A DNA stretch of 64,000 nucleotides from Plumapathes pennacea (Eukaryota; Cnidaria; Anthozoa; Antipatharia; Myriopathidae). The stretch covers positions 9,434,183 through 9,498,182 of the forward strand of contig OZ038468.1 of the NCBI GenBank assembly GCA_964036295.1, written 5' to 3'. The notes beneath the pieces were generated by a model. It was not told where the DNA came from, ran no database searches, and saw only the letters and a program-made list of their open reading frames with translations. Each line of letters starts with the position of its first letter. Within the stretch, counting starts at the first letter, position 1. Below are positions 18,841 through 52,435 of the stretch, one piece after another. Made by a program: the position numbers and the translations under genes.

Positions 18841-19139
18841 AGGAGAAAAGGAACGTAGAGTAAATCAAGGAAAGCAAATCGAGGAAAGCAGAAGAAAAAT
18901 GCTTACACGAGGGAATATAGGAAAAGAAAACAGTCAAAACAGAAGGCTCAAAAGAACACTATACAGGTGTTCATGTGAATGCTTCTGGTGGTAATTATGA
19001 TGTAATAGAACAAAGTTCGTTGCAACATGATAATGAGCTTCAGCAGACAGAAAATTTGATATCAAAATTTCATGATACTGTTTCCAGAGGAGCAATGTAT
19101 ATATGCAGTTGCTGTGACCAGCTGTGGTACAAACACAGT

Positions 19140-19376
19140 GGGCCAATTTTTTAAACAAGGTTTAGACCACAGTTAAGAAAGTCCTGGTCTAAACAAGATT
19201 TAAACAACAGCCATGCTTAACGGACAACGGCCAAGCATCATCTTTATAAACCAACTCCGATCCATGTTCCAAAAATGCAATTTAACGTTTCACTAACCCT
19301 GTTTTACGGGGTCCGTTTAAACTTCAATTTGTCGATAACCCAGCTCTAAGTTAGACATTGTTTAAAAAACCGGCCC
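19140..19376 (+). mobile_element. 237-bp MITE, copy A
   Basis: Ends are GGGCCAATTTTTTAAACAA and, inverted, TTGTTTAAAAAACCGGCCC. AGT flanks both sides (19137-19139 and 19377-19379), and removing one AGT plus the element restores the Helentron frame across KHS/VSSAE. An inverted copy of identical length is at 51619-51855. Size, 3-bp duplication and GGGCC termini suggest a PIF/Harbinger-type MITE. Confidence 0.85.
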
Positions 19377-20848: not shown

Positions 20849-20968
20849 TGTCATGATATTAGGTTAATAAGTTAATCAATGTTACTCACTAACCACAGAT
20901 CTATATACGTGTATGATCTTTACCCAATAAACCAGTTGCGTTACTCACGCTTGAGAGTGAACATAACA
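20849..20968 (+). repeat. 5' LTR
   Basis: 120 bp, TGTCATGATATTAGG...GTGAACATAACA. Contains ATATACGTG and AATAAA (in CCAATAAACC), the latter a candidate polyadenylation signal. Confidence 0.93.
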
Positions 20969-20981
20969 TGGTGTCAGAAGT
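20969..20981 (+). other. Primer-binding site, tRNA-Leu
   Basis: TGGTGTCAGAAGT directly follows the LTR and is complementary to the 3' end ...ACTTCTGACACCA of tRNA-Leu(CAG). The next base is the A of the gag start codon, so there is no untranslated leader after the primer site. Confidence 0.8.
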
Positions 20982-21578
20982 ATGGACTCTTTAAAACAAC
21001 CGAAGCCTCTATCGTTCGAAGGAAACGTCGCCGAAAATTGGCGTCGGAGGATTCAACAGTTCAAACTGTACTTGGTCGCTACAGCCCGGGACAAGAAGTC
21101 CGACGCAGTTCAATGTTCGACTCTGTTAACAGTCGCTGGCGAGGAGGCCATAGAGGTGTATAATACGTTCAATCTCAATGAGGAGAGCGGTGACCTTGGT
21201 GTTCTCATCAAGAGGTTTGAGGCCTATTGCATACCCAAAAAGAATGTAACCTTCGAGCGACACGTGTTCAACACAAGGAGCCAAGGCACGGCAGAAACCA
21301 TTGACAGCTACGTTACAGAGTTAAGAAAGTTGGCCAAGTCATGCGAGTTCGGAAGCCTTCACGACACTCTCGTCAGAGACCGAATTGTGTGTGGCATAAG
21401 GAGCGACGAGGTGAGAGGACGACTGCTACGCACAACTGACCTAACGCTCATCAAAGCGATAGAGACATGTCGGACAGCAGAATTAAGTAAGAGCCAGATG
21501 AAAAACATGGCCGAAAACCAAGAAAAAACCGTAAGTGCCCTATATGCTTCATCAAGACCCGTATATCTGAGCAGATAA
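20982..21578 (+). CDS. Ty3 gag capsid protein without zinc knuckle
   Basis: 198 codons starting MDSLKQPKPLSFEGNVAENW, typical of Ty3 capsid proteins, followed by KLYLVATARDKKSDAVQCST and EAYCIPKKNVTFERHVFNTR, then TIDSYVTELRKLAKSCEFG. The start is the ATG immediately after the primer site. Gag forms the virus-like particle. Usual family members continue into one or two CCHC knuckles and a protease; here the frame ends shortly after CRTAELSKSQMKNMAE. Its TAA overlaps the ATG of pol by one base (TAATG), an arrangement that could allow termination-reinitiation. The missing part suggests an internal deletion joining gag to the RT region. Confidence 0.9.
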   Translation: MDSLKQPKPLSFEGNVAENWRRRIQQFKLYLVATARDKKSDAVQCSTLLTVAGEEAIEVYNTFNLNEESGDLGVLIKRFEAYCIPKKNVTFERHVFNTRSQGTAETIDSYVTELRKLAKSCEFGSLHDTLVRDRIVCGIRSDEVRGRLLRTTDLTLIKAIETCRTAELSKSQMKNMAENQEKTVSALYASSRPVYLSR

Positions 21579-24268
21579 TGGCACAGCATGCTGATGTGTT
21601 TCAAGGCCTTCGTTGCCTTCACGGGGACTACCACATAGAAGTTGACCCCTCTGTTCAACCAGTCGTACATCCACCCCGCAGAGTACCGTTCGCTCTCAAG
21701 CACAAGCTGAGAGCCGAACTGGAGAGGATGGAAAAACTCAACGTCATCACCAAGGTCACGGAAGCAACCGCATGGGTTAACTCAGTAGTGGTGACAGAAA
21801 AGAAAAACGGAAAATTGAGAGTTTGTTTGGATCCACGAGACTTGAACAAAGCCATCAAGCGAGAACACTATCCAATGAAAACAATCGAGGAAGTTGCAGC
21901 TGAGATAAGCGGAGCAACGGTGTTCAGCACTCTGGACGCATCATCTGGATTCTGGCATGTCAAATTGGACGAGCAGAGCTCCAAGATGACCACATTCAGC
22001 ACACCATTCGGACGGTACCGGTATCTCAGATTGCCGTTCGGAATAAACTCGGCGCCGGAAGTCTTTCAGCGACGAATGACACAAACGTTTGAAGACATCG
22101 AGGGAGCCGATGCCATCGTGGATGATGTTCTCATCTGGGGAAAAGACGTGCCGGAACACAACAAACGGCTAGAGCAAGTCCTGCAGAGAGCCAGAGATAT
22201 AAACCTGAAGCTGAACGCGGAGAAGTCCATCATAGAGACAGACAAAGTGACATACATCGGACACATTTTAACCAGCCAAGGAGTACTACCAGATCCGACT
22301 AAAGTCGAAGCTATCACAGAGATGGAGTCACCTAAAGATAAGAAAGAATTACAGCGATTCATGGGAATGGTAAACTACTTGGGAAAGTTCATTCTGAACC
22401 TGTCAGATGCCACCCAGTCTCTCCGAGAACTTCTACACAAAGAAGTAGTGTGGCACTGGAACACAAACCACGAGAAAGCCTTTAAAGAAGTAAAGGAAAG
22501 GCTGACTGAAGAACGCATACTGAAGTACTTTGACGTGAACAAACCAGTGACGATCTCGGGAGACGCCTCATCATATGGAGTTGGAGCATGTTTGCTGCAA
22601 GACCGATGCCCAGTTTCATACGCATCACGGTCATTGAGCAAGTCAGAACAGAACTATGCACAAATTGAGAAGGAACTTCTCGCGATAGTTTTTGCATGTT
22701 CAAAGTACCATCAGTACATCTACGCGAAACCAGTGATGGTCGAAACAGACCACAAACCGCTGGAGTACATCTTCCGGAAGCCGCTAACGGCAGCACCCCC
22801 TAGACTACAGCGCATGCTGCTGACCCTGCAAAAGTATGACCTGGATGTCATTTACAAACCTGGGAAAAGCCTATTCATAGCTGACACTCTGAGCAGGGCC
22901 CCAAGAAAGCAGGGGCAACATGAGCAGGCAACAAGTGACGAGTTGCATCAAGTACACACACTACAACACCTGCCAATGACACCAGAGAAGTTGGAACGGT
23001 TCCGAGCAGAGACATTGGCAGACCCGGTGCTCCAGAAGCTACAACGCACAGTACACAATGGATGGCCAAATGAGAAGTCATCCGTAGATCCAGCCATCCG
23101 GGAATACTGGTCAGCCAGAGACGAGATCAATGAACAAGACCGAATTCTCCTGCGAGGGGAAAGGCTAATTGTACCCTCCTCCTTAAGGAAGGAAATGCTG
23201 CAAAGGATACACGAGAGCCATTTCGGTATCGAGAGATGCAAGCGCAGGGCGCGTGATGTGCTCTACTGGCCAGGCATGAACAACCAAATAACCCAGCTGA
23301 TATCAAGATGCGACATCTGTCAGCGCTTCAGGAAAGCCCAGCAGAAAGAGCCCATGAGAGGACACGAAATACCTGGAGGACCATGGCAAAAAATAGGCCT
23401 AGACCTATTCGAAGACGAGGGCGAGAGCTACCTGGCAATCTCGGACTACTATTCGAAATTCTTTGAGATCACAAAGCTGACAACCACGACCAGTGCATCA
23501 ACGATTAAGCACATCAAGCCGCATTTTGCAAGACATGGAATTCCAGAAGAGGTCATAAGCGACAATGGCCCACAATTCAGTAGTGCCGAGTTCGCAAATT
23601 TTGCTACACAATACGAATTCAAGCACACCACCTCTTCGCCCACGTACCCACAGTCAAACGGTCTGGCAGAGAGAACCGTAGAAACCGCCAAGAACATCCT
23701 CAGGAAAGCCAGGGAGGATAAGAAAGACCCCAACATAGCATTGTTGGACTTTCGAAATACACCAATAGATGGGGTTGGACTATCTCCAGCACAACTGCTG
23801 ATGGGACTTCGGATGAGGACACGGTTGCCTACAAGCCCAAAGCTGTTGAAGCCTATGTACAATGCAGACACGATCAGGACACGCCTGACAGAGAAACAAC
23901 AGAAGCAAAAGAGCTACTACGACAAGACAGCCAAAACCCTGCCGACCCTGCAACCAGGAGAACACGTGCACCTACGGAATGAAGATAAAGGAATCTGGGT
24001 ACCAGCTACAGTGAAACAGGTTGCCAATGAGCCACGATCCTATGTAGTGGAGTCGAATGGACGAGACTACAGAAGGAACAGGAGACACATCCTAAAGGAA
24101 CCAGCCCAAGCAGAGGACCAAAACACAGCCGGTACAACACCAGACTCCCCAGTAATCACACCTGCCGCAGAGACAACGAAATCCCCAAGTCCACAAGGCG
24201 GAGTTACAGTCACTACCAGATCTGGTCGAGTTGTAAAGCCACCAGTCAGATACATTAACTCTTCATAG
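21578..24268 (+). CDS. Ty3 pol: reverse transcriptase, RNase H, integrase
   Basis: An uninterrupted 896-codon frame. RT is at residues about 20-230, with LRVCLDPRDLNKAI, LDASSGFWHVKL and the catalytic box DAIVDDVLIWG. RNase H is at about 320-440, with ISGDASSYGVGACL, the Glu in QIEKELLAIVFAC, and VETDHKPLEYI. Integrase has a zinc-binding segment (HESHFGIERCKRR...RCDICQ), a core with the catalytic Asp in GLDLFEDEG, the second Asp in VISDNGPQFSS and the Glu in QSNGLAERTVETAKN. A C-terminal domain follows (GEHVHLRNEDKGIWVPATV). No protease motif (DSG/DTG) precedes RT. The start MAQHADVFQG corresponds to the usual linker before RT. Open frame and near-identical LTRs mean recent insertion, but without protease it would need help in trans. 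Confidence 0.93.
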   Translation: MAQHADVFQGLRCLHGDYHIEVDPSVQPVVHPPRRVPFALKHKLRAELERMEKLNVITKVTEATAWVNSVVVTEKKNGKLRVCLDPRDLNKAIKREHYPMKTIEEVAAEISGATVFSTLDASSGFWHVKLDEQSSKMTTFSTPFGRYRYLRLPFGINSAPEVFQRRMTQTFEDIEGADAIVDDVLIWGKDVPEHNKRLEQVLQRARDINLKLNAEKSIIETDKVTYIGHILTSQGVLPDPTKVEAITEMESPKDKKELQRFMGMVNYLGKFILNLSDATQSLRELLHKEVVWHWNTNHEKAFKEVKERLTEERILKYFDVNKPVTISGDASSYGVGACLLQDRCPVSYASRSLSKSEQNYAQIEKELLAIVFACSKYHQYIYAKPVMVETDHKPLEYIFRKPLTAAPPRLQRMLLTLQKYDLDVIYKPGKSLFIADTLSRAPRKQGQHEQATSDELHQVHTLQHLPMTPEKLERFRAETLADPVLQKLQRTVHNGWPNEKSSVDPAIREYWSARDEINEQDRILLRGERLIVPSSLRKEMLQRIHESHFGIERCKRRARDVLYWPGMNNQITQLISRCDICQRFRKAQQKEPMRGHEIPGGPWQKIGLDLFEDEGESYLAISDYYSKFFEITKLTTTTSASTIKHIKPHFARHGIPEEVISDNGPQFSSAEFANFATQYEFKHTTSSPTYPQSNGLAERTVETAKNILRKAREDKKDPNIALLDFRNTPIDGVGLSPAQLLMGLRMRTRLPTSPKLLKPMYNADTIRTRLTEKQQKQKSYYDKTAKTLPTLQPGEHVHLRNEDKGIWVPATVKQVANEPRSYVVESNGRDYRRNRRHILKEPAQAEDQNTAGTTPDSPVITPAAETTKSPSPQGGVTVTTRSGRVVKPPVRYINSS

Positions 24269-24361
24269 GTTGAACCATGAACATGAAATTGAACTGGGAC
24301 TGATTTTCTAGTGCTTTGTTAAATTTATGATTGTTACGTAACATTAGCTTGTCTCCAATTT

Positions 24362-24372
24362 GAAAGGGGAGA
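24362..24372 (+). other. Polypurine tract
   Basis: GAAAGGGGAGA directly before the 3' LTR, the expected primer for plus-strand DNA synthesis. Confidence 0.8.
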
Positions 24373-24492
24373 TGTCATGATATTAGGTTAATAAGTTAAT
24401 CAATGTTACTAACTAACCACAGATCTATATACGTGTATGATCTTTACCCAATAAACCAGTTGCGTTACTCACGCTTGAGAGTGAACATAACA
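24373..24492 (+). repeat. 3' LTR
   Basis: 120 bp, one difference from the 5' LTR, followed by the ACCTC target duplication. Confidence 0.93.
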
Positions 24493-26838: not shown

Positions 26839-26976
26839 CTCCTTAACCCTTGACCATGTTTTTCTGATTGGCTGCCTTTCTCGGCAGCCAATCAAAAATT
26901 ATTAAGTTTCCTCTGAGGTAAGTTTCTTTCTTAATCCCCTTTTAAACCCTGTTTACCCATAATCCTCTCATTCACT

Positions 26977-27006
26977 CTGACGAAGGGCTAGAGCTCGAAA
27001 CATCAG
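26977..27006 (+). other. Hammerhead-like hairpin at the Penelope-like 3' end
   Basis: CTGACGA, one extra A, a 4-bp stem (GGGC/GCTC with TAGA loop), then GAAAC and ATCAG. CTGANGA...GAAA is the core of hammerhead ribozymes, which are known in Penelope-like elements. The NUH cleavage strand and stem III are not assigned, and the extra A is non-canonical. CTGA also pairs with the closing TCAG. Confidence 0.45.
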
Positions 27007-27065
27007 CTATTGTCTCTTTTACGGCATTCCATTACCTTCATCAACACCTAGTTGATACACAGGAC

Positions 27066-27544
27066 TTGCAAGACCAATTACAAGACCATGATTACAGACA
27101 AATGGTCCAAATGTTGAACAAGGAGCAAAAGGATTTCTTTTATCATATCTGGCATCTCATTAAAACGTCTGATGAACCATTCCATTGCTTTTTAAGTGGA
27201 GGAGCAGGTGTGGGAAAGTCGCATCTAACTAATGCACTATATCAGGCTGCATTGAAGTATTACAACACTAGAGCTGGCGATGACTTCCATCAAGTCAAAG
27301 TTTTACTGCTTGCCCCTACTGGAAAGGCTGCTTATAATATCCAGGGTAATACAATACACAGCTCTTTGGCAATAACAGCATGCCAGTCTCTGAAGAATTA
27401 CAAACCTCTCGATTCAAGCAGACTAAATACTCTGAGAAATCAACTTGGAGGTATAAAACTAATATTTCTAGATGAAATATCGATGGTTGGCAATACCATG
27501 TTTAATGTACAGATTAACAATAGACTGAAGGATATCAAAGGCAG
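27066..27544 (+). pseudogene. Helentron helicase, N-terminal part
   Basis: The frame continues the Helentron after the Penelope-like fragment: MLNKEQKDFFYHIWHLIKTS, then the Walker A motif FLSGGAGVGKSH, VLLLAPTGKAAYNIQGNTIH (motif Ia) and Walker B IFLDEISMVGN. It belongs to the Pif1/RecD-like SF1 helicases that unwind DNA during Helitron transposition. It is cut at KDIKGS by the LINE at 27545; the remaining motifs resume at 31320. The reading frame runs on by chance into the LINE protein. Confidence 0.9.
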
Positions 27545-27557
27545 TCGTCATGTCACC

Positions 27558-28679
27558 ATGGCGCGAAGACGCGTTCTTATGAGCTCCGTAACCTTGCTGG
27601 TTTTTTCAACATTTCTCGAGGTTAGTGCGCAACCTTTGCATGCTAGAGTATTGCCCAACAAGTGGTGCTATCCACTAACAAGCTTTGGAGGATCGAAGGC
27701 TGATCTTCCTGGTGCAAAAACACAAACATCATCGGGAATGCTTGATCACAGTGTCCGCCATATTGGAGCGAGGACGCTGCGATTACGTCGGGCACGGTTT
27801 GCGAAATCAAACATCACCTATTACGCTAATGCCGATGCCAGTTTCAACTATGAATATCTGTGTCTGTGTGGTGACATTCTATCCAACCCGGGACCTACTA
27901 CCAAGAAAACCTGTCCTGTGCGTAATAAAACAGTCGCTAAGTCACATCGAGCCATTAGCTGTGATAGCTGTTACCTCTGGTGTCATATCAAGTGCGGAGG
28001 AGTTAGCCCGAAGGAGTACAAACTGTTTCAAGCAACTGAAGACTTTTCCTGGACCTGCCCAACTTGTGTAGCCATATTACAGGAACTTCCATTTGCAAAC
28101 GTCAACAATATTGATTCCAGTCTTGACTCAAGTTCCTCCACGGAACACGAAACCTGCATCTTGCCGGGCTATCAGGAACTCGCACAAAAGTGTGCGAAAC
28201 ACTTCAAAATGGGTCATATAAACGCAAACAGCATTGCAGGATTTAAGCATGCAGAGATACGGCAATGGCTGGAGGCAAGTTATTTTGACCTGTTCGTAAT
28301 TACAGAGACCAAGCTTGATAATAGTTTTCCAAACTCACAATTTGAAATCAACGGATTTCGACTGCTTCGGAGGGACAGAAATATACATGGAAGCGGAGTA
28401 CTAATGTATCTTCGCAGTGATATTCCATACATCCAAGTAAAGAGGCTCGAACAGACATCTGGCATTGAGTGTCTAGCGGTTAGAGTAAAATTAGCGAAGT
28501 CCTGGACAACATTCATTGGTCTCTACAGACCTCCAGCCCTTGCAAAATTCATGTGGAGAAAGGAGCTATCTGACGTTCTCGAAACTGCAAATGGGAAATC
28601 TGAGAGTATCTTTCTGCTGGGGGACTTTAACTGTGACCTGCTAAAACCGGACAAGCCGCCCAAAGAGGGATCTTGTTGA
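27558..28679 (+). pseudogene. LINE protein part 1: signal-like N-terminus, 2A-like motif, PHD finger, endonuclease
   Basis: Starts at the ATG 13 bases inside the element. Residues about 5-25 (VLMSSVTLLVFSTFLEVSAQ) form a hydrophobic, signal-peptide-like stretch. YLCLCGDILSNPGP (near 27860-27896) ends in the NPGP of 2A peptides. A PHD-like zinc finger follows (CDSCYLWCHIKCGGVSPKEY ... WTCPTC). The AP endonuclease starts KMGHINANSIAGF, with FVITETKLDNSF (catalytic Glu), LYRPP and FLLGDFNCDLL (GDFN motif). A frameshift near 28665 ends the frame before the SDH motif. The helicase frame of the Helentron reads into this ORF without a stop. Confidence 0.85.
27870..27896 (+). other. 2A-like motif in the LINE
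   Basis: Encodes GDILSNPGP. NPGP and the preceding D-I fit the 2A ribosome-skipping consensus D(V/I)ExNPGP, with Leu in place of Glu. Such motifs are known near the N-terminus of CR1-like LINEs of invertebrates. Confidence 0.6.
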
Positions 28680-28683
28680 CATT

Positions 28684-29679
28684 ATGGAAGCGTATGGCTT
28701 TCATAACGTGATAAATTATGCGACACGCATCACTAGGTCAAGTGAAACAATGATCAATCTCATACTGACGAACAGCAGATCGAAAATTCTAAAGGCTGGT
28801 GTAGTGGATCCCCACATCAGTGATCACTCGCTGGTTTTTGCCGTTTTAAGAGCAGCGCCGTTGAGATCCCGATCGCAAAAGATTACGTTCCGAAGTCTAA
28901 AAAACTTTGATGTTGACAACTTTCTCGCTGACTTGAATAGCGTTCCATTTCACGCCGTAATGAATGCTTTTGACGACGTTGATGATAAGCTTTATGCTTT
29001 CCAAACACTTTACACTGATGTTGTGGATGAGCACGCACCATTAAAGCATGTGCGTGTTCGTGGAAACCAAGTGCCGTACATGACCGAGCAATGGAGGAAA
29101 GCAATTAGACATTGTAACCACTTATGGAAAATTTTCACGCGAGAAAGAACTGACGCCAATTATGCTACTTATAAATCCCAGAGGAACGCGTGTACATCCC
29201 TCAGGTGTAAGGCTATAAAAGACTATTTCAGGAAGAGATCGGAGGAATTAAATCAAGATCCACGCCAGTCTTGGAACACTTATCGCCCATTTCTCCACTC
29301 CAAGTGCACTTCGAAGGCCAATGATATTATTCTGAAGGAGGATGAACAAATAATAACTGACAAATTGCAGATCGCTGGCATTTTTAATGAGTACTTCATT
29401 AATATTGCCAAACATATTGACATTCCGCACAGTGATGACTATGGTGGGGATTTCAGCAGTCACCCCAGCATGAGGGCGATCACTGAAAGCGTCAACAAAG
29501 CTGGTGTACTGCGATTTGGTTTGTCTTTGACAAATTCAGCTTGCGTTCAACAACTACTGCAGGATATCAAAGTGAAGAAATCACCAGGTCATGACGACAT
29601 AACCCCCAGGTTATTGAAGGAATCGGCAGCGGTCATTGCTTCTCCACTCTCGAGCATATTCAATTCATCTATTGTCTAA
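28684..29679 (+). pseudogene. LINE protein part 2: endonuclease end and RT N-terminal region
   Basis: 331 codons in a new frame: the endonuclease SDH motif in PHISDHSLVFAVL, then PHAVM...DVVDEHAPLKHV and YFRKRSEELNQDPRQSWNTY, then the RT start KVKKSPGHDDITPRLLKESA. It ends at a TAA where a one-base shift would continue into part 3. Confidence 0.85.
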
Positions 29680-30560
29680 TGCAAATATCCGTCAACATGG
29701 AAAATGGGACAGGTCACTCCCTTACTGAAGAGGAGGGGATGAACAAGCAGTTCTTTAGACCAGTAACTGTTCTCCCAGCACTAAATAACATCTATGAGAG
29801 GCTCCTTTCGTCGCAGATGCTCCATCACTTCCAGGGCCTTCTTTCTGACTACCTTTCAGCGTACAGAAGGTTCTATAGCTGCGACACGACGCTGTTACGC
29901 CTCGTCGAGGACTGGAAGGAATGTTTGGATCGTGGGGAGCTTGTTGCCGTTGTTGCCATGGATCTATCAAAGGCATTTGACAGCCTTCCTCAAGCACTGC
30001 TGATTGCCAAACTGCGAGCGTACGGCTTAGATGAACAGTGCTGTTCATTACTCGAAGATTACTTTCAGGATAGGCAACAGAGGGTCAAAGTTGGCGATGT
30101 ATTTTCAACATGGGAGCACAATCAGAGAGGTGTGCCACAGGGAAGTGTCCTAGGACCCTTACTTTTTAATATATTTCTGAATGACCTTTTCTATTTTATT
30201 ACCAAAGTCAAGCTTAATGCATACGCTGACGATCAGCAACTGCATAGCTTGGATACGGATCACCTTGCCCTGTATAATAGAATGAATAGTGAATTATCGG
30301 TAGCTGCTAATTGGTTTAGGCAAAATGGCCTCATGGCCAATCCTAGCAAATTTCAAACACTCATATTCGGAGAAACAGATTTGGATTTCTCATTTACAGT
30401 AGATGCAGTGAAGATCGAGAAGTGTGATGATATAGATTTATTGGGAATTAATCTTGACTCCAGACTTAGTTTTAAAAGCATACATCACATATCTGTGAAA
30501 AGGTTAACAATCAGATTAGGGTTATCGGACGCTTTAGAAAGCTTCTTTCGGGATCTATAA
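29679..30560 (+). pseudogene. LINE protein part 3: reverse transcriptase core
   Basis: 293 codons with RT motifs VTVLPALNNIYERLLS, AVVAMDLSKAFDSLPQALL (first catalytic Asp), QRGVPQGSVLGPLLFNIFLND and the catalytic box NAYADDQQLHS, followed by NPSKFQTLIFG. It would copy element RNA at the target site. It begins and ends at frameshifts, so the protein is not continuous with its neighbours. Confidence 0.88.
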
Positions 30561-42893: not shown

Positions 42894-43104
42894 ATGGCGG
42901 TGACAAGTGAAAGTCAGAAGAAGAGTCGCTCTTTGGATCAGGATTGGCGAAAGGAAAAAGAGCTGTGAGAAACGAGGAAAGCTGGAACAGCACCAGCACT
43001 CACTGATTAGGAGGTAAAGTAATACTTTTTTCTTGATGCTCCCGGAATATTTATTTCGTAGCTGTAATATGCAAGTTTCAAGAGCAAACGTTGATCCTTC
43101 TTTG

Positions 43105-43385
43105 AGGAGGCAGTGTGGCCGAGATTTTAGGACGCCGGACTTGAAATCCGGAGGTCTCAGGTTCACGTTCCGGTCTGACCACAGCTGAATTTGCAACACG
43201 GTAGCCCTGGGTTCAAATCCTCGGCCACACTATGTAAATAGCCAATTGGTAATTAGCCTCCGACCAGTTGGGATTCTTAATGAATTTGCGTTCAGTTTAT
43301 GATATTTCGTTTCCGCATTTCAAGTCTCCCCAATTAGCACGGCAGTGCTAAATACATTGAGAATTGAATAAAGTGATTTTTTACT
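43105..43385 (+). mobile_element. tRNA-Ser-derived SINE in the first SLU7 intron
   Basis: The head (about 43105-43184) resembles tRNA-Ser(UGA): A box TGGCCGAGATTTTAGG, anticodon arm CCGGACTTGAAATCCGG with loop CTTGAAA, and a decayed B box GGTTCACGTTCC. A second B-box-like GGTTCAAATCC follows at about 43210 and ends with CTCGGCCACAC, complementary to the head's GTGTGGCCGAG. The body continues to TTGAATAAAGTGATTTTTT. Degenerate B box and the body exclude a functional tRNA gene. Confidence 0.8.
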
Positions 43386-44119
43386 GGATAGTTTCTATAC
43401 CGATCTCTATTCGTACCATCATTTTATGCACTATTTATTGTATTTCCTTCTTACTTGAACACATGATAAAGTATCGCATGCATGTGATCCTGTATAAAAT
43501 GTGTAATGTTTTCTATCTTTGTTCTTAATTCATTCAGAAATATCAATCCTCATTTTCCTCAAATTTCACAAGTTCCATGGACTATGGAAATACAAGGTAA
43601 GTACAGTACAGTGTAAATACCATTAATCAGCAGAATGTGTGTGATGTAGCTAAGACCTGACACTGCTCGACATTAACGGTTGCCTGCTATGCCTGGTACA
43701 ACCAAAAATTTTGGCCAGGCAGGTAAATTCATGGCTAACCTGAGTTTCAGGCTCTTTTCTGGGAGATGTGATATAGGGGCAAAAAAGAGAGGAAAACAGC
43801 CTGACACAAATCCATTGAAAAAAGCCTTCCGCCCCTTCACATGTCACCATATTTTCAGCCAATCAAAAGGACTTCTGGTTTTTGATTGACATGCATCCAG
43901 TTGCAAGCGGCTCCTGGCTTGTTCAAGAAAATAAAAATATTCATTTTTGTGAGTGATTTTAGCTGATTGAGCAAGACATTCACTGAACATTATTCTGTCA
44001 GTTCTGCCAGCACATTCAGAACAGTTGCTCATTTAATCGGGGAGTGATTTCTAGTTTTTTTTTTTTTTTTTTTCAAATTAGCGCATCCCTACTTGATGGC
44101 AATAATACTGATGACTATT

Positions 44120-44480
44120 AACCATTAACAATTTTTCCACTCTCTCACTTATCCGATATCCGAAACTCTCCAAGCATTTCTGCCTTCAAAACAAAACTTA
44201 AAAATAGCCTACTTTGCTAGATACCTACAACCTAGAAGTTGTCGTATTCTTTGTTTGGCTTACTTTACTTTACTTTACTGCACTGCACTGCACTGTTTTC
44301 TCTGTTTGCACTGCACTTCCACAATACTACACTTATATAGATCTAGTTTTTCGTCCTTGTAACGAGGAAGCCCAGATATCATAAGCCCCCCGGCTTCTTT
44401 CTGGGCTTCCTCACCACAAATTTTCTCAATTAGTAAGTTACAAGATAAATGATATGTGCAATGAATCAAATAAAAAATAA
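44120..44480 (+). pseudogene. LINE 3' end fragment in a SLU7 intron
   Basis: Reads SDIRNSPSISAFKTKLKNSL, the typical C-terminal end of CR1/L2-type LINE proteins, followed by a 3' UTR with a (TTTAC)n/(TGCAC)n simple repeat at about 44255-44300 and an A-rich tail near 44470-44490. Confidence 0.65.
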
Positions 44481-47400
44481 AATGAAATGAACAAGGTGCT
44501 TGAAATAGACTTGAGCACTGCAGAAACTAGTGAGGCAAGAGCTTAAAACATTTTGCTTTGATTTTGGGAAAGATTTAGGCTTTCTTTGAGGAGTTACACA
44601 CAAAACAGTGTCAGTGTCTGCACATGCTGATTCTTTTGTTTATTATCCAATCAGCACAACGCCCAGATTCTGGACATTCAACATTGGTCATTGAATGGGT
44701 TTTTGTCAGGCGTAATTTCATTTCTCTCCTCTCTCCCCAGTCTATTAGGCTGAGAGAAAAATTAGCTGAAAAGTTAGCCTGATACTCAGGTTAATTCAGG
44801 GCTGGGCAACCAGTATATATGAAACTTTCTATTGCTTGAAGTCATTCTACAGCCTGAAGGGCAACCAACCTAAAACCTTAATGTTGAGCACTGCCTGATT
44901 TTATCTGTGCGATCTGTGTGAGAAAACTGCTTCATGCAGGATGGGAGGAGAAGGGGTACAGTATGTGTCATAGTTGGAATATTGATTTAACATTATGAAA
45001 AACTCACATACAGTACAGTAATGTTAATTTTTGCTTTACGTTAGTTACCAGCCTGTTGCAGGCTTCTGGCATGCTCTCAAGATTCAGGTTCTGTCTTTCT
45101 TCAATAACCAGAAGCCTATACAGTAGCAGTTAAAGTGAGGTTCAACTGTAAAATTTTTTACATCTAATGACTGCAGTCTAAAATAAAACATCAGAGACCT
45201 CAAGAGAAAAAAATAGGCAGTTTGCTGGTCTGGACACTTGGTCAGGGATCCATATTCGTAGTCATATGGCGTCCAAGATGACAAAAAAGCCATGCGGACA
45301 AGTAAAATAACTCAAAAAGTTGTCCGTTTGACGAGTTAACTCAAATACAATTATTCTGCTGCAAATGTGTTCAAAAACCTGTGTTCTGAAAATTCCTCGT
45401 CTATTTTGTAACTTCCAGGAAAACCGCTAAAACTTTGCCAACTAGCTTCCTTTCGCTCTAAAATCATAATCATTTTGCTTGTGCATTGTTGTTATATGCA
45501 CTTTTTTGGTTCTGGAAATTAAATAACAAATGTTCCATTTAATTATACTGCCATTTGCTTTTGTTATAATTCTGCACTTTTGAATGGGCAAGTAAAATTT
45601 TGCCAGGGCAAGTATCTTATCCAGCATCCACCTGATGACCATGAGAAAAAACGAATATGGGTCCCTGCTTGGTGCAAAAAAGGGACAGCAATCGTGAGTA
45701 GAATTTGCATAATTTACAGTAACATGTTTATATAAAAGATGAATTGGTGTGAACTTGTTGGGGTAGTATATGTTACAGTATTATGGCATATGTTTAATTT
45801 TAATGGTTGGATTGCAGGTTCAACGTAATACCCTTCCAATCAAATACCGCAAAGGATCCTGTAAAAACTGTGGTGCTACCACTCACAAAAAGAAGGATTG
45901 CTTGGAAGTAAGTAGTCAGTACACCCATGATAGTGTTCTTTAAGTTTTCGGACAGCCACTTACTGTACAGTTTAGGCTAGGAAAACTGACAGATTTGCTG
46001 TCAGTTGCTTTGCCACCATTGTACTGCAGAGTCAGTGAGAGGAGAAAATGACTGGTAGCAGGGTGAGAGGCAGATGTTTATTGTGCATTTTAGACTTTCT
46101 ATTGCTAAAATGTATTGAATTTGTGTGTTTGTGATGAATTCATTTGACCACAGCTGAGCTTTGATTATGATGGAAAATGTGACAGGTAATGTCCAGGCTG
46201 TTGACAGTAACCTGATATACCATACACATATTAGTATAATGATTATTACAGTTGAAGCTTTCTGGGTGGACACTCTCATAAGTGGACAGCTCTACTTGTG
46301 GATGCCTTTATGAAACCCTGTTTAAAATGTTGAATAATCAGACTCTGTATTTAAGCATTCTTGTAAGTCAACTGTCTATAAAATTATGCGTTGCACAGTC
46401 TAGCAATGCATTTTTGTGTATATACATCAATCAAGGTTGCTTTCATGCATTGGGCAATAAGTTAAAATAATGTCGTACAGACACAGTGTATCAGTATTGA
46501 AACAATATCAAATTAATGCTTTTTTTTTTCAGGTTTGATGGAGAGAATGGCCCAGATGTAATTTTTGTTTATTTTTTTCTCTCAGATGGAATGGCTATGA
46601 TGTCAGACAACATCAACAGATTGTTGAAGAATACACTAAGATGGACCTTGTGAGTATGGAGTGTAATAGAGTGTTGCATTTTGCAGTGTTCTACATACCA
46701 GATTCCCAGTTTGATTCATGGTCAAAATATTAGATACTATTACTTGTATCTTCGACAAATAATTTAAATTGCAAATTGTTCGAAGTATTAATGTGAGCCC
46801 AGGAGGTCCACAATTCATTATAATTTGGTCTCACAGGGCATGGGAAAATATGTTTTATGATGTTAACTTGAATTTCTTTTTTACAGGCTAAGCAGCAGTT
46901 AAAGGCACAAAAAAAAGGAAAGAAAGAAAGGTACAGAAACCGGAAGACAAAAAACAATGTAGCAAGTAAGGTAACTTCTTGCTCAAAACTGATCTCTTGG
47001 TTTCATAGCCTATTACCCCTTCACTTCCAGGAGTGACAATTTTCAATTTTATCCTTCAGTTTCTCAGCAGAGGTACAGTACATGCCTGGGTACATGTCAT
47101 GTACAGGGCATTTGACTTTTGATAAAATCTGACTAAACTATTAAATTCTCTTTAGGTCACTCATACATTTTCTTCTTAAAAGGTTGAGAAAATCTGCAGT
47201 GTGATCAAACACACTATGCTCAGCCTGTCTTTCATGCTGACAGCTCTCAGCATTCTTGGCCAACTTAATATCAGATCATGAAGTCATCCCAGGAAGCCAG
47301 TTGTAAACCAAGTTCATTCTCTCATGCTCATGGCTATGAAACTGCAGAGTTATGATCAAAGATTTCCTCTGTATGTAGCAACCCATGTTGTGCCTTGAAT

Positions 47401-48499
47401 AACAGGCCTCTGCTGTATGAAGTTGTTCCCTGATGCAAGTCACTTGGTATTATGTACAGTAACAGTATTTTTTCTGTATACTTTCTTTTAACAGGCTGAT
47501 GAGGATACTGAAGACGAAGACAAGTATGCAGAAGGTCTGGCCAACAAAATTTTGATACAAAAAGGTTATGATAAGTAACAAATTAATACTTGATCCAACA
47601 TACAGTACTGATAAAATGTCGCAAGAAAATAATTAATAAAAGCATATGATTTCATTTCCTGTAGAAGTACCACTGCGAGGAATTCGAGAATATGAGAGGA
47701 CATGACAAAGGTAAATAGTGAATGGCTTCCCTGCTTTATTACATCTCAGCTCTTATAATGTACTTGCATGATTATTGTATTTCACATACTTCCTTTTCAG
47801 TGTCTGTAAAACTTGTTCTTGAGTTCGGCGTACTACAACCCCAAGACAAGATCAACACGTAAAAACCCCCCTGCGAGAAGGCAAAAAGGACAAGTAAGTT
47901 TAGTTAATTAGACCTCCAAGGTGCAACAAAGGTGTGTCCCTGCGGCCATAAACAAATCTTACTACTGCAGCCTCCTCCTCCTACAACCTCCTCCTTCAAA
48001 CATGCAAAGCATGATGTCTCTATGCTTATGACGTGAGACTTGTTCTGTTTTCCAGTGTGACGTTCTCTCATGATAACTTTGTGCAATATTCAGGAGATAT
48101 ACAAAAAATGGCCAAGTAGGACGCAAAGTAAAGTTTCTCCTGGCAGTCTAACCCAGTCTCTTGCCATCTCGCTCAGATGAATGCTGATTGAACTCGCTCA
48201 ATAAATTCTCAGAACTAAAGGCCAACATAATTTGCAATTGCCTTCACTTTGAAGACCAATCAACAATGTGAGAAAAGTCCATCGCCACTAGCTTGCTTAC
48301 GTGACCAGATTGCAATATTGCTTTTGCTTCTGATTGGCCGAGAATGCTGCCAAATTTATTTGGACCAATCAAAAAGCATAGGAAACGCAAAGCAATCACG
48401 TGACTACTTTGGACAGTCAACTAAAAACCGCCCCAGTATACTCACGAAGATTGTCTCGATTGTTTCCGCTCACACGATAGCTTCGTAAACACGGCTTCT

Positions 48500-48945
48500 C
48501 ACAGCTCTTATACTGCCTACCGAAAATAAGGACCAATTATGATAAATTCAATATCAGACTTAATGGCCCTAAAATTTGGAATGAAGTTTCTGAAACTATC
48601 AAAGGAAATAATCAAAGCACAAAACTATTTAGAAGTAAACTCACTGCTCACCTGATTGAATCTTACTGATCTTGTTTGAAAGTTATTTTTTATTTGTGTG
48701 TGTGTCTGCTTGTTTGTTAGTCTTTTGAAATGGTACTGTATACTGTGTAGTTAGTGATTATGTTTCGCCTTTCTGACTATCAACTGTACTAATATTCATG
48801 TCTGAGTGCTTGACACGATTAACGTACTAGTTATTTCTAGCATCCTGTACATTTTCCCTGTAATTCTAAGCCATATTGTTGTTGTTAGCTTCTCGCTCCT
48901 TCGCAGAGGCTTCTCGTTGTACGCTCGCTGTTTTATAGCGTTTAG
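48500..48945 (+). pseudogene. LINE 3' end fragment in a SLU7 intron
   Basis: Reads TNYDKFNIRLNGPKIWNEVS, then FRSKLTAHLIESY and a stop, a standard LINE C-terminus (GPKIWN...FK.KL...), followed by a T- and GT-rich 3' UTR. 5'-truncated copy between two SLU7 exons. Confidence 0.7.
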
Positions 48946-51618
48946 TTGTGGGAAATGTAAAGCATGCGGATACCTGGGGGAGAGAAATTCAAGCGTGCCA
49001 TCGTTTTTCCTTTTCTACACTGCCCCCTCCCCTAGGAAACCTCTGCGGAAGAGAGACACACAGCTTACTGCAGTTGGATGATCATTGCATTATATTCTTC
49101 ACGGGCAGTGTTTGCTTGGGATACGTACGAAAAAGGAGCGGACGTGCACTTACGGGCAGACCCGGCAAAACTGGAGTTACTTCACCGCGAATACAAAGTC
49201 AAAAAGGGAGACTTTGAAGAGGACTAGAAGCTGAATATTCTGTAAAAGGTACGCCAACTTATAATCGTAGTTTTCCACAAGCAACTGTGGCCACAAAAAT
49301 GTTGCTCAAACTGATCTACTGCTGTACGTTTTATTCTGTGTAGTATGGAGGAGAGAAGCATAAACGGTGAATGTATGCATCAATCGGAATCAAATCTGCT
49401 TACGTCTCCAGAGTGATTAACCGTTGTTTGCAATATAGAAACGATCTTTTCCCGCTTTGGCTACTGGCTGTAACATTTATTGGTTTTTCAAGAAGTAGTG
49501 TAGCATGCTCTGACAATCAAAGTAGTTTTTTAGACTTTTCGTCACTCTTTCATGGCGTCTCTTGCAGGAACAATACGTGGAGTATTCACGAACAGGCCGC
49601 GTGGTAAAAGGTATAGGAACCAGTTCAACTTTGATGAAGTGTGCATACAGTGCTTGTTGTGATATAGTGTCTCTGGGATTAAGGTTTGTGTAAAACTCTG
49701 TTATTTAGAAGTCATGATTGACTTGTACTGCTCACTACAAACAAACTAGTGCCTGTCCTTGATAACCCACAATCTTGGACAAAAGTGTTGACACATTCTC
49801 CCCTCCCCCCATTCAATGTTGATAAATTAATTATTTAGCAACGATTTTCCGTCAAAGTCTTACCGGAACTCTTCCAAATTCAAGCTACAACATTGATACG
49901 GGGAGGGGGGGGCATGGGGGGTTATTAAAAGCAGTTTTCTTTGGAACTGGTGACTCACAGCATGGTAGTTTTGACAAAAGTACGACATTTAAAGCATGTG
50001 TCAACACATTTTGTCTGGGATTGTAGCTTCTTTCGAAAGTATGCTTTAGAAACTTCATAATGAAACACTGCTCTTTGTGATTTTTTTTCTGAAAACAAAA
50101 TGCGAACCTGTCGCGTACTGAATTCTTTTGTTACGTTATTACAGGACAAAAAAAGGCAGTGTCGAAGTCCAGATAAGAAGACATCTGCACTAACAAGCAC
50201 ACTGTACGTTGAATGAGTGAACTTTGTATCGCATTCTCAAACACCTGCTGCTCGTTTTACGTCACTATACGAATGTCACACGACGTCGTAACTTGAACCT
50301 CTTTGAGGATTAATCTAAAAAAAACATTGTCATGACTTAAAATCCTGACCAAACTGACTCGCAAAGTCACAAAGAACGCAAGGAAAGCATTCAGTTTCCA
50401 AGACAAAAGCTCGGATACGTTGAGTGTAGGTCGGCATATGTTGAGTACGCCAAGAATGCGTCGGCTTGCGCGTAGATCTGAGCTCAACAAAGTCCTCGTG
50501 AGTTGGCCCAAGTGGTGTAGGCCGATTGGCATGCACATGTTTGAACGCACGGAAGTCGAAAACTTGCGTTGATTTATGAGGCAACTCCTCGGAAGCGAGG
50601 TGGCAAGCTTTTATCGTTTTATTCACTGCATAATCTCAACTTTTGCCTGTTAACAAAAGGTTGCTCGTTCGTTGACGTAGTTGTTACTGTATATGCTGAT
50701 GTGTTTGTTGTGTATTTAGTTGTCAGGCTGTGTGGGGATCGTTCCGGCAGAAAAGCAAATGGGGCTACGGCTGCTGTCATTCTATCGTCAGAAAGTCCTA
50801 CTGCACATGAGAAGCGACCAGCAGAAAGGTAAGCGGTCATCCACACAACTGTGTGAGTTAGTATAACAGAGATAATAACTGATGAGTTAACAGAGACAGG
50901 CAGTGAGGATCAAACGAGTAAACCTGAATGCCTGCAGTGAGATTAGGAATCTCCTGAACGAACAGTTTCGCCCGGAACGAACGGAAACGCCGGCATTGCA
51001 GTCTACAAACGAGTCCAGCAAAACAGACAGAGCACAAAAAAAAGGGTGTCGAGGTAATTTATCCTCAAAATTGATTCTACATCAACGACACGTCTTACAA
51101 ATCTTTATAACTCATAGATGCCACATTTAAACCAACTAATCTTCCACTAATGAAATACGTACGAGATGTAGACTCAATCTTAGCGATAAAAAAATTGCCC
51201 GGTTTACTTTAAAGCCAATTTTTGGACAACTTGATGTATTGTTAGTATCAGGCGCGGTCACTGTTCTGTTCGACTCATGCATGGTTTACTGATGCGGATT
51301 TTGCACTTACTCTTTCCAGACGCTTCTCCAACTGACCGAAGCTGCTAAAGCCATCAGTGAAGCAGACGAAAGCAATAAAACACTACTGGAGGTGAGAGCA
51401 ACACCGCTGACCAAAAGTAGTTTTGCAAAGATGTTTTCCTCAAGAAATTTTGCATGGGGTACATTAAGCTGGGGAAGTCAAACTAGTTTTGTGTCCAGGA
51501 GTGAATATGGTCATAGAAAGCCCACACTGGCTTATGACGTCACGACTGGTCCGCGAATGGGGATTTGTATGGGATTTTTTCAAGTAACTTTTTACGCGTT
51601 AATGTAACAGAACTTACT

Positions 51619-51855
51619 GGTCGATTTTTTAAACAAAGCCTAACTTAGACCTGGTTTATTGCTAAATTGAAGTTTAGACGGACGCCGTAAAACAGGGCTA
51701 GCCAAACGGAAAATTGCATTTTCAGAACATGGATCGGAGTCGGTTTTGTAAAGACGACGTTTAGCCGTTGTCCGTTAAGCATGGCTATTGTTTTAATCTT
51801 GTTTAGACAAGGACTTTCTTAACCGCGGTCTAAACCTTGTTTACAAAATCAGCCC
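51619..51855 (-). mobile_element. 237-bp MITE, copy B, in the last SLU7 intron
   Basis: Inverted counterpart of 19140-19376 with the same length. Ends GGTCGATTTTTTAAACAA and TTGTTTACAAAATCAGCCC, flanked by ACT (51616-51618 and 51856-51858), which is AGT on the element's own strand. Confidence 0.85.
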
Positions 51856-52435
51856 ACTGGGTCTGATAAACAGAAAGAGTCCTTCCCTCGGTTTTTAAGC
51901 CGATTGTTGCACTCGTAGTTCTGCGCCCTGCCGAGGTTGACAGTGCCGCAACGATAAGAAGAGTTTGAAATTTATGAAAGCGTGTTATAGAAAACGGATT
52001 CAAACCCCGGATTTGAACTCAAGTTAGCCATTCAACACAAACGTTGAACTCAAATCCAAAAGTGGCCAGCTACGAAAAATTGTTTGAAATTGGAATTTGT
52101 GACCTGTAGAGTTCGGATTATTTGTCGGGAACTCAACCCATTTGTCCAATGAACTGGTAAAAGAGAGCAACATTTGAAATTCATGCTGCCAAATTATATT
52201 AAATGACGTCAGTAACAAACCGCTGATCATTTCTAACCCTCTGCAGGCGCTTAAAGTCGAGGAATGCCACCAGAGAGACACTGAACGCCTCCTTGAGATG
52301 GACGAACGCCAGAGACCGTACAACTCACTCTGAGGGGACAACAAAGACATGACGGAAGAAGAAATGGAGGCGTATATAATGAAGCGTCGAAACCAAGACG
52401 ATTCAATGAAAATTTTTCTGGGTTCAGTCGATTAA

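Follow-up and report, generated by a model that had tools for sequence, protein, structure and literature searches.

What is the SLU7-like locus at positions 42894-52435 of a 64,000-nucleotide stretch of the black coral Plumapathes pennacea (assembly GCA_964036295.1, contig OZ038468.1; the whole stretch is called the window), and does it still serve as a gene? SLU7 is an essential spliceosome factor acting in the second step of splicing. Judged from its DNA, the locus is a decayed, intron-bearing copy of SLU7, in agreement with the original prediction. It is very probably a dead duplicate made at the DNA level and recopied within segmental duplications. Below, contigs are numbered; the window is C7:9434183-9498182.

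Human SLU7 (PDB 5xjc_Z) matched the exon reading of the window with E 3.3e-86 and 293 bits, using a query that included one wrong exon-3 piece. That piece, 45620-45690, had been read by eye as exon 3 and was rejected, being mostly the tail of an inserted element. Spliced protein-to-DNA alignment scored 994 at the locus versus 115-202 on six control stretches, and tblastn exon matches reached 63.5 bits versus 26.2 for the best match elsewhere in the window and 23.9 in the reversed window, so the exon matches are not due to chance. With each piece scanned singly, 3 of 10 exon pieces matched Pfam Slu7 at E < 0.001. After alignment to an open SLU7 gene on C12, 18 of the 19 exons were detectable in the original order, exon 18 being lost and exon 5 shortened, and the zinc knuckle was still readable in exon 4 (45818-45907); both the exon order and the knuckle had been predicted. 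The locus thus shares exon order, zinc knuckle and Slu7-domain remnants with SLU7/Slu7 (Pfam PF11708; 5xjc_Z), but unlike them its frame is broken by ten stops and further indels. No Rfam match at gathering thresholds was obtained within the window, and a 121-base piece of the window compared with phages gave no match.

The assembly searched comprised 290 Mb in 24 contigs. All 16 candidates for Pfam Slu7 were scored, and 9 matches resulted at five loci: three on C7, one on C10 and one on C12. When 6.3 kb of the locus served as a DNA query, with 40 of 4292 candidates scored, the four copies with introns were recovered again. The second intact locus that the original prediction had proposed to look for is the open gene at C12:3313237-3320772, with 19 exons, 544 residues, no stop and GT-AG at 18 of 18 introns in a predicted exon model built manually on the alignment with human SLU7. 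Its protein scored 349 bits against Pfam Slu7, and 340 of 539 aligned residues were as in human SLU7. Two stops and one frameshift flagged in the C12-human alignment were rejected, since in the final model one of the stops precedes the ATG, and the second stop and the frameshift reflect a misread exon 7. The other C7 loci are dead copies as well, copy B at C7:9954997-9941745 and copy C at C7:5881750-5871067, both on the minus strand. All three C7 copies align with the C12 gene through introns and flanks, which upholds the view that the window locus is duplicated and not processed. Identity over gap-free aligned sites was 99.2% between the window copy and copy C, 96.6% between the window copy and copy B, and 82.6% between the window copy and C12.

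The fifth locus, C10:8385719-8385214 (minus), is an intronless SLU7 fragment that starts with the last part of exon 4, stops within exon 12 and has 7 junctions fused. It is truncated at both ends and has one stop and three frameshifts in its SLU7-like part, for which reason a living intronless SLU7 on C10 was rejected. The fragment is a processed pseudogene, having branched near the split between the C7 lineage and the C12 gene.

The remnants in the window, by comparison with the C12 gene and the other C7 copies, are as follows.
42894-43018, plus strand: exon 1 remnant; TGA 42966 in all three C7 copies, TAG 43008 in the window and copy C.
43538-43596, plus strand: exon 2 remnant; deletions of 3 and 1 base, common to all three C7 copies.
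45177-45693, plus strand: exon 3 remnant; two 1-base deletions common to all three C7 copies, with the element 45243-45667 inside.
45818-45907, plus strand: exon 4 remnant, with the readable zinc knuckle.
46134-46185, plus strand: exon 5 remnant, without its first 49 bases and acceptor; shared TGA 46145.
46586-46649, plus strand: exon 6 remnant, placed by the C12 alignment.
46887-46970, plus strand: exon 7 remnant; indels of +26 and -14 bases.
47495-47564, plus strand: exon 8 remnant; shared 7-base deletion.
47665-47710, plus strand: exon 9 remnant; shared TGA 47693.
47801-47893, plus strand: exon 10 remnant; shared TAA 47807, and a 1-base insertion in the window and copy C.
48056-48116, plus strand: exon 11 remnant; a 12-base deletion took the exon end and donor in the window and copy C, intact in copy B.
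49109-49248, plus strand: exon 12 remnant, with a Pfam Slu7 match; shared TAG 49225 and TAA 49243.
49344-49366, plus strand: exon 13 remnant; shared 34-base deletion.
49568-49610, plus strand: exon 14, same sequence as the C12 exon.
50145-50203, plus strand: exon 15 remnant; TAA 50174 through a 3-base deletion in the window and copy C, TAG at the same codon in copy B.
50727-50828, plus strand: exon 16 remnant; shared TGA 50808 and 9-base deletion.
51320-51391, plus strand: exon 17, frame open.
51619-51865, no strand: repeat that has replaced exon 18; common to the three C7 copies.
52247-52435, plus strand: exon 19 remnant; terminal stop retained, shared TGA 52331.

The ten in-frame stops of all three types that had been predicted were verified in the sequence (TGA 42966, 46145, 47693, 50808 and 52331; TAG 43008 and 49225; TAA 47807, 49243 and 50174). 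TAG 48117 is an eleventh stop, formed by former intron sequence read through after the 12-base deletion. The frame is indeed broken, as predicted, but the single frameshift named was too few: in the surviving exons, with exon 18 excluded, 12 indels relative to C12 were not multiples of three (exons 2, 3, 4, 5, 7, 8, 10, 11 and 13), part of which may be changes of the C12 gene. Paired indels in exons 4 and 7 sum to multiples of three. The Slu7 domain is interrupted by stops and lacks the open frame of a functional SLU7. C-to-T hypermutation as the source of the stops was rejected, the ancestral codons being mixed (GAA, GAG, CAA, CGA, TAC, AAG, GAT, GGA and AGA).

Eight of the ten stops are common to all three C7 copies, while TAG 43008 and TAA 50174 are present in the window copy and copy C; among the frame breaks common to the three copies are deletions in exons 2, 3, 8 and 13. 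Lesions of copy B's own include TAG stops in exons 1 and 15 and inserted bases in exons 6 and 19. Because eight stops are common to the three copies, the SLU7 copy was already dead when it was recopied. The 425-base element in exon 3 (45243-45667) has 17-base terminal inverted repeats, 94% complementary, with ends of the type CAGGGATCC, and is flanked on both sides by CTTGGT, a 6-base target duplication; a single CTTGGT stands in copy B and C12. Since it is present in the window copy and copy C and its site is empty in copy B and C12, the insertion falls between the split of copy B and the split of the window copy from copy C. The original prediction had overlooked this insertion, and the copying of the wreck was not visible to it.

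Blocks at least 92 kb long, inverted relative to each other, surround the window copy and copy C; they were followed from C7:9444482/5917831 to 9537182/5819590 without reaching their edges. The matched pieces (filtered at 300 bases and 95%) were 96-99.5% identical, and insertions break both sides. Such a long, high-identity block at a second place on C7, in inverted orientation, is what a segmental duplication presents. Copy B has homologous pieces across a similar stretch, more interrupted by insertions. Allelic divergence in outbred corals could reach the level seen between the window copy and copy C, and the identities over the gene and over at least 92 kb would also fit one locus, the window together with copy C (or B), assembled twice from uncollapsed haplotypes. 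We consider this unlikely, although it deserves weighing: the two copies stand on one contig in opposite orientation, 3.6 Mb apart, with no N in the examined stretches; their blocks differ by kilobase insertions; and copy B is 3.6% away in introns. Even if the locus had been placed twice, the window copy would remain a dead paralogue of the C12 gene.

How long the copy has been dead was examined by its divergence. Between the window copy and copy B, codon positions 1, 2 and 3 differed at 13/467, 12/470 and 11/474 sites and introns at 248/6944. The ratio of nonsynonymous to synonymous rates (dN/dS) was 1.15 for the window and B, an imprecise value from 27 nonsynonymous and 6 synonymous changes, and 1.19 for C and B; evolution after the split of copy B was thus near-neutral, as in a pseudogene. 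Against C12 the ratios were 0.28, 0.34 and 0.31 for the window, B and C, respectively. The C7 lineage is about 22% (Jukes-Cantor) from the C12 gene. When 54 nonsynonymous stem differences were polarised with human SLU7, 32 were assigned to C7 and 2 to C12, and 20 stayed undecided; the count is biased towards C12 by the conserved residues that human SLU7 retains. When the C10 fragment served as outgroup (506 coding sites aligned), changes at codon positions 1, 2 and 3 numbered 9, 10 and 11 on the C7 side and 1, 0 and 10 on the C12 side (Fisher, positions 1+2 versus 3, P 0.004; the counts are small). The similar third-position counts suggest comparable neutral rates on the two sides, and the even 9:10:11 suggests little coding constraint on the C7 side for much of its time. 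Read together with the estimate from dN given below, these counts put the dead part of the C7 lineage's history at between about one half and the whole. The death is old, and the recent death that had been considered does not agree with eight stops shared with two other copies, an intron distance of 3.6% to copy B and the distance of about 22% between the C7 lineage and the C12 gene.

The splice borders were then compared. In the window, 32 of 36 splice dinucleotides are still GT or AG, so the predicted intact splice signals hold for most borders, but deletion or replacement removed four: the acceptors of introns 4 and 17 and the donors of introns 11 and 18. The intron 18 donor reads GC inside the repeat that replaces exon 18 and was excluded from the counts. 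Base changes affected 0/64 splice-dinucleotide bases versus 79/938 at codon positions 1+2 (Fisher P 0.007), which bears out, with modest statistics, the claim that splice borders were kept better than the frame. As controls, intronic GT and AG dinucleotides of C12 lying outside its splice sites were kept in the window copy at 165/253 and 162/241.

Several observations weigh against a copy that died early and then decayed freely. With a neutral expectation taken as the intronic GT/AG loss halved for one branch, the chance that all 32 alignable splice dinucleotides stay unchanged would be 0.003 if the copy had been dead since the duplication, 0.02 if dead for two thirds of the time and 0.06 if dead for half; at a rate 0.74 of the intronic one, these become 0.014, 0.06 and 0.13, respectively. 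Differences between the window copy and copy B were slightly fewer in exons than in introns (36/1411 versus 248/6944, P 0.053; polarised subset 29/1411 versus 116/4289, P 0.21). The dead share estimated from whole-gene dN was 0.60-0.67 (bootstrap 0.41-0.86), on the assumption that the two branches are equally long and that the constraint was 0.05 as long as the gene lived; this would mean a sizeable functional phase, at odds with 9:10:11. In addition, the C12 exon model is predicted and hand-made. The outgroup counts, together with the lower exon rate after the split of copy B, are the reason why the dead share is stated more widely than 0.60-0.67.

The same splice-border counts and the slower exons would favor a locus whose frame is dead and which is still transcribed and spliced as non-coding RNA, with selection keeping its splice borders, the continued transcription that had been suggested. 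We regard this as improbable. Donor position +5 differs from C12 at 6/16 sites and +6 at 3/17, copy C has lost the intron 3 donor (GT to AT), the window and copy C lost another donor by deletion, and exon 18, the first 49 bases of exon 5 and two acceptors have been lost. An early functional phase accounts for the state of the splice borders with no need of an RNA role. Somewhat less probable still would be three dead copies all transcribed and spliced as non-coding RNA with selection, for example against mis-splicing or for an RNA that tunes SLU7, acting only on the splice borders. The splice-border excess is real but its statistical support is modest; chance, or a functional phase early on, is enough to produce it.

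A living gene, with the stops ascribed to sequencing errors, recoding or editing, might appeal to the long readable exon runs and the intact zinc knuckle. It has next to no probability: eight stops of all three types recur at three places in the genome, 12 out-of-frame indels and an element in exon 3 accompany them, dN/dS is about 1 after the split of copy B, and an open gene exists elsewhere; in view of the shared lesions and the neutral divergence we count it as refuted. A processed, reverse-transcribed pseudogene is refuted by the introns, which align with C12 together with both flanks.

The preferred reading is therefore that of a duplicated pseudogene: the locus has lesions, its parent's introns, an open paralogue on C12 (predicted model) and no coding constraint. 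A segment with the whole SLU7 gene and its flanks would have arrived on C7, the gene on C12 keeping its open frame. The copy on C7 would then have lost its frame by point stops, small indels and the loss of exon 18, with repeats entering its introns, and the wreck would have been copied at least twice more along C7 in large inverted segmental duplications. Copy B would have split first, followed by entry of the 425-base element into exon 3 and then by the split of the window copy and copy C. No SLU7 protein would be made from the window locus now.

The exon-3 element appears to be short and DNA-transposon-like. Its genome search gave 22 matches among those listed, including the twins in the window and copy C, two other full-length ones at 90% and partial ones. 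Several partial matches pair as the ends of 1.3-6.1 kb spans on C1, C2, C5 and C6, as longer relatives of the element would. Intron 1 holds a tRNA-like short interspersed nuclear element (SINE) at 43100-43380 (plus), present in all three C7 copies and not aligned in C12. Its family is about 275 bases long, with 37 of 40 scored matches outside the SLU7 copies at 90-93% identity (best 40 of 1089 candidates); it resembles tRNA-Ser by eye, and ARAGORN calls no tRNA in it. A relative of the repeat replacing exon 18 lies at window 19130-19375 in opposite orientation. A repeat of about 260 bases in intron 14 (49769-50030) is carried by each of the three C7 copies and missing from C12; with 40 of 4292 candidates scored, no fewer than 34 further places match it at 93-97% identity. 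Intron 11 has an insertion of about 380 bases, and an open stretch there (48481-48666) resembles by eye the end of a protein of a long interspersed nuclear element (LINE) and has no Pfam match. Elsewhere in the window, about 3.6 kb at 20849-24492 contain long retrotransposon-like open frames by eye; being absent from the otherwise aligned block of copy C, they suggest a young insertion. At 26946-30557, a PIF1-like helicase reads into an endonuclease domain and then a reverse transcriptase (Pfam), probably a LINE-type element beside or inside a helicase-bearing element.

The window locus is of an ordinary kind, a duplicated pseudogene spread by segmental duplication. GENCODE unprocessed and transcribed pseudogenes have lost the frame and kept the exon-intron structure; the window copy resembles the unprocessed ones in both respects and is known here from DNA alone. 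Among titles and abstract openings for SLU7 with pseudogene or with coral, no SLU7 pseudogene was found as a subject. PKD1 has one master gene and several dead copies on human and chimpanzee chromosome 16 (PMC2564946); as in the SLU7 case, duplication has distributed the dead copies along a chromosome. The PKD1 copies are young, lie on the master's own chromosome and bear signs of gene conversion, as given there (PMC2564946), whereas the dead SLU7 lineage is about 22% from its open gene, on another contig, and has stops common to the copies. For non-syntenic regions of coral genomes, one study describes recurrent block duplication with neutral sequence hitch-hiking, in a model that permits a duplicate to become a pseudogene (PMC12314368). 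As on C7, neutral sequence and transposons are carried in large blocks; the cases described there are tandem arrays of expanding gene families, whereas here a dead essential gene lies in inverted blocks. Another coral study reports widespread segmental or tandem duplication (PMC12005167). The C7 stretch may be such a non-syntenic duplicating region, and the wreck would have been multiplied because the part of the chromosome in which it lay tends to undergo large duplications.

For annotation, the three C7 loci and the C10 fragment call for caution, as they can draw SLU7 gene models. For the coral, the case is the loss of a spare essential splicing gene with an internal relative time scale. Since a single genome contains the open gene, its three dead copies with introns and an outgroup that lacks them, it offers a small natural test of how fast splice borders decay after the death of a frame.

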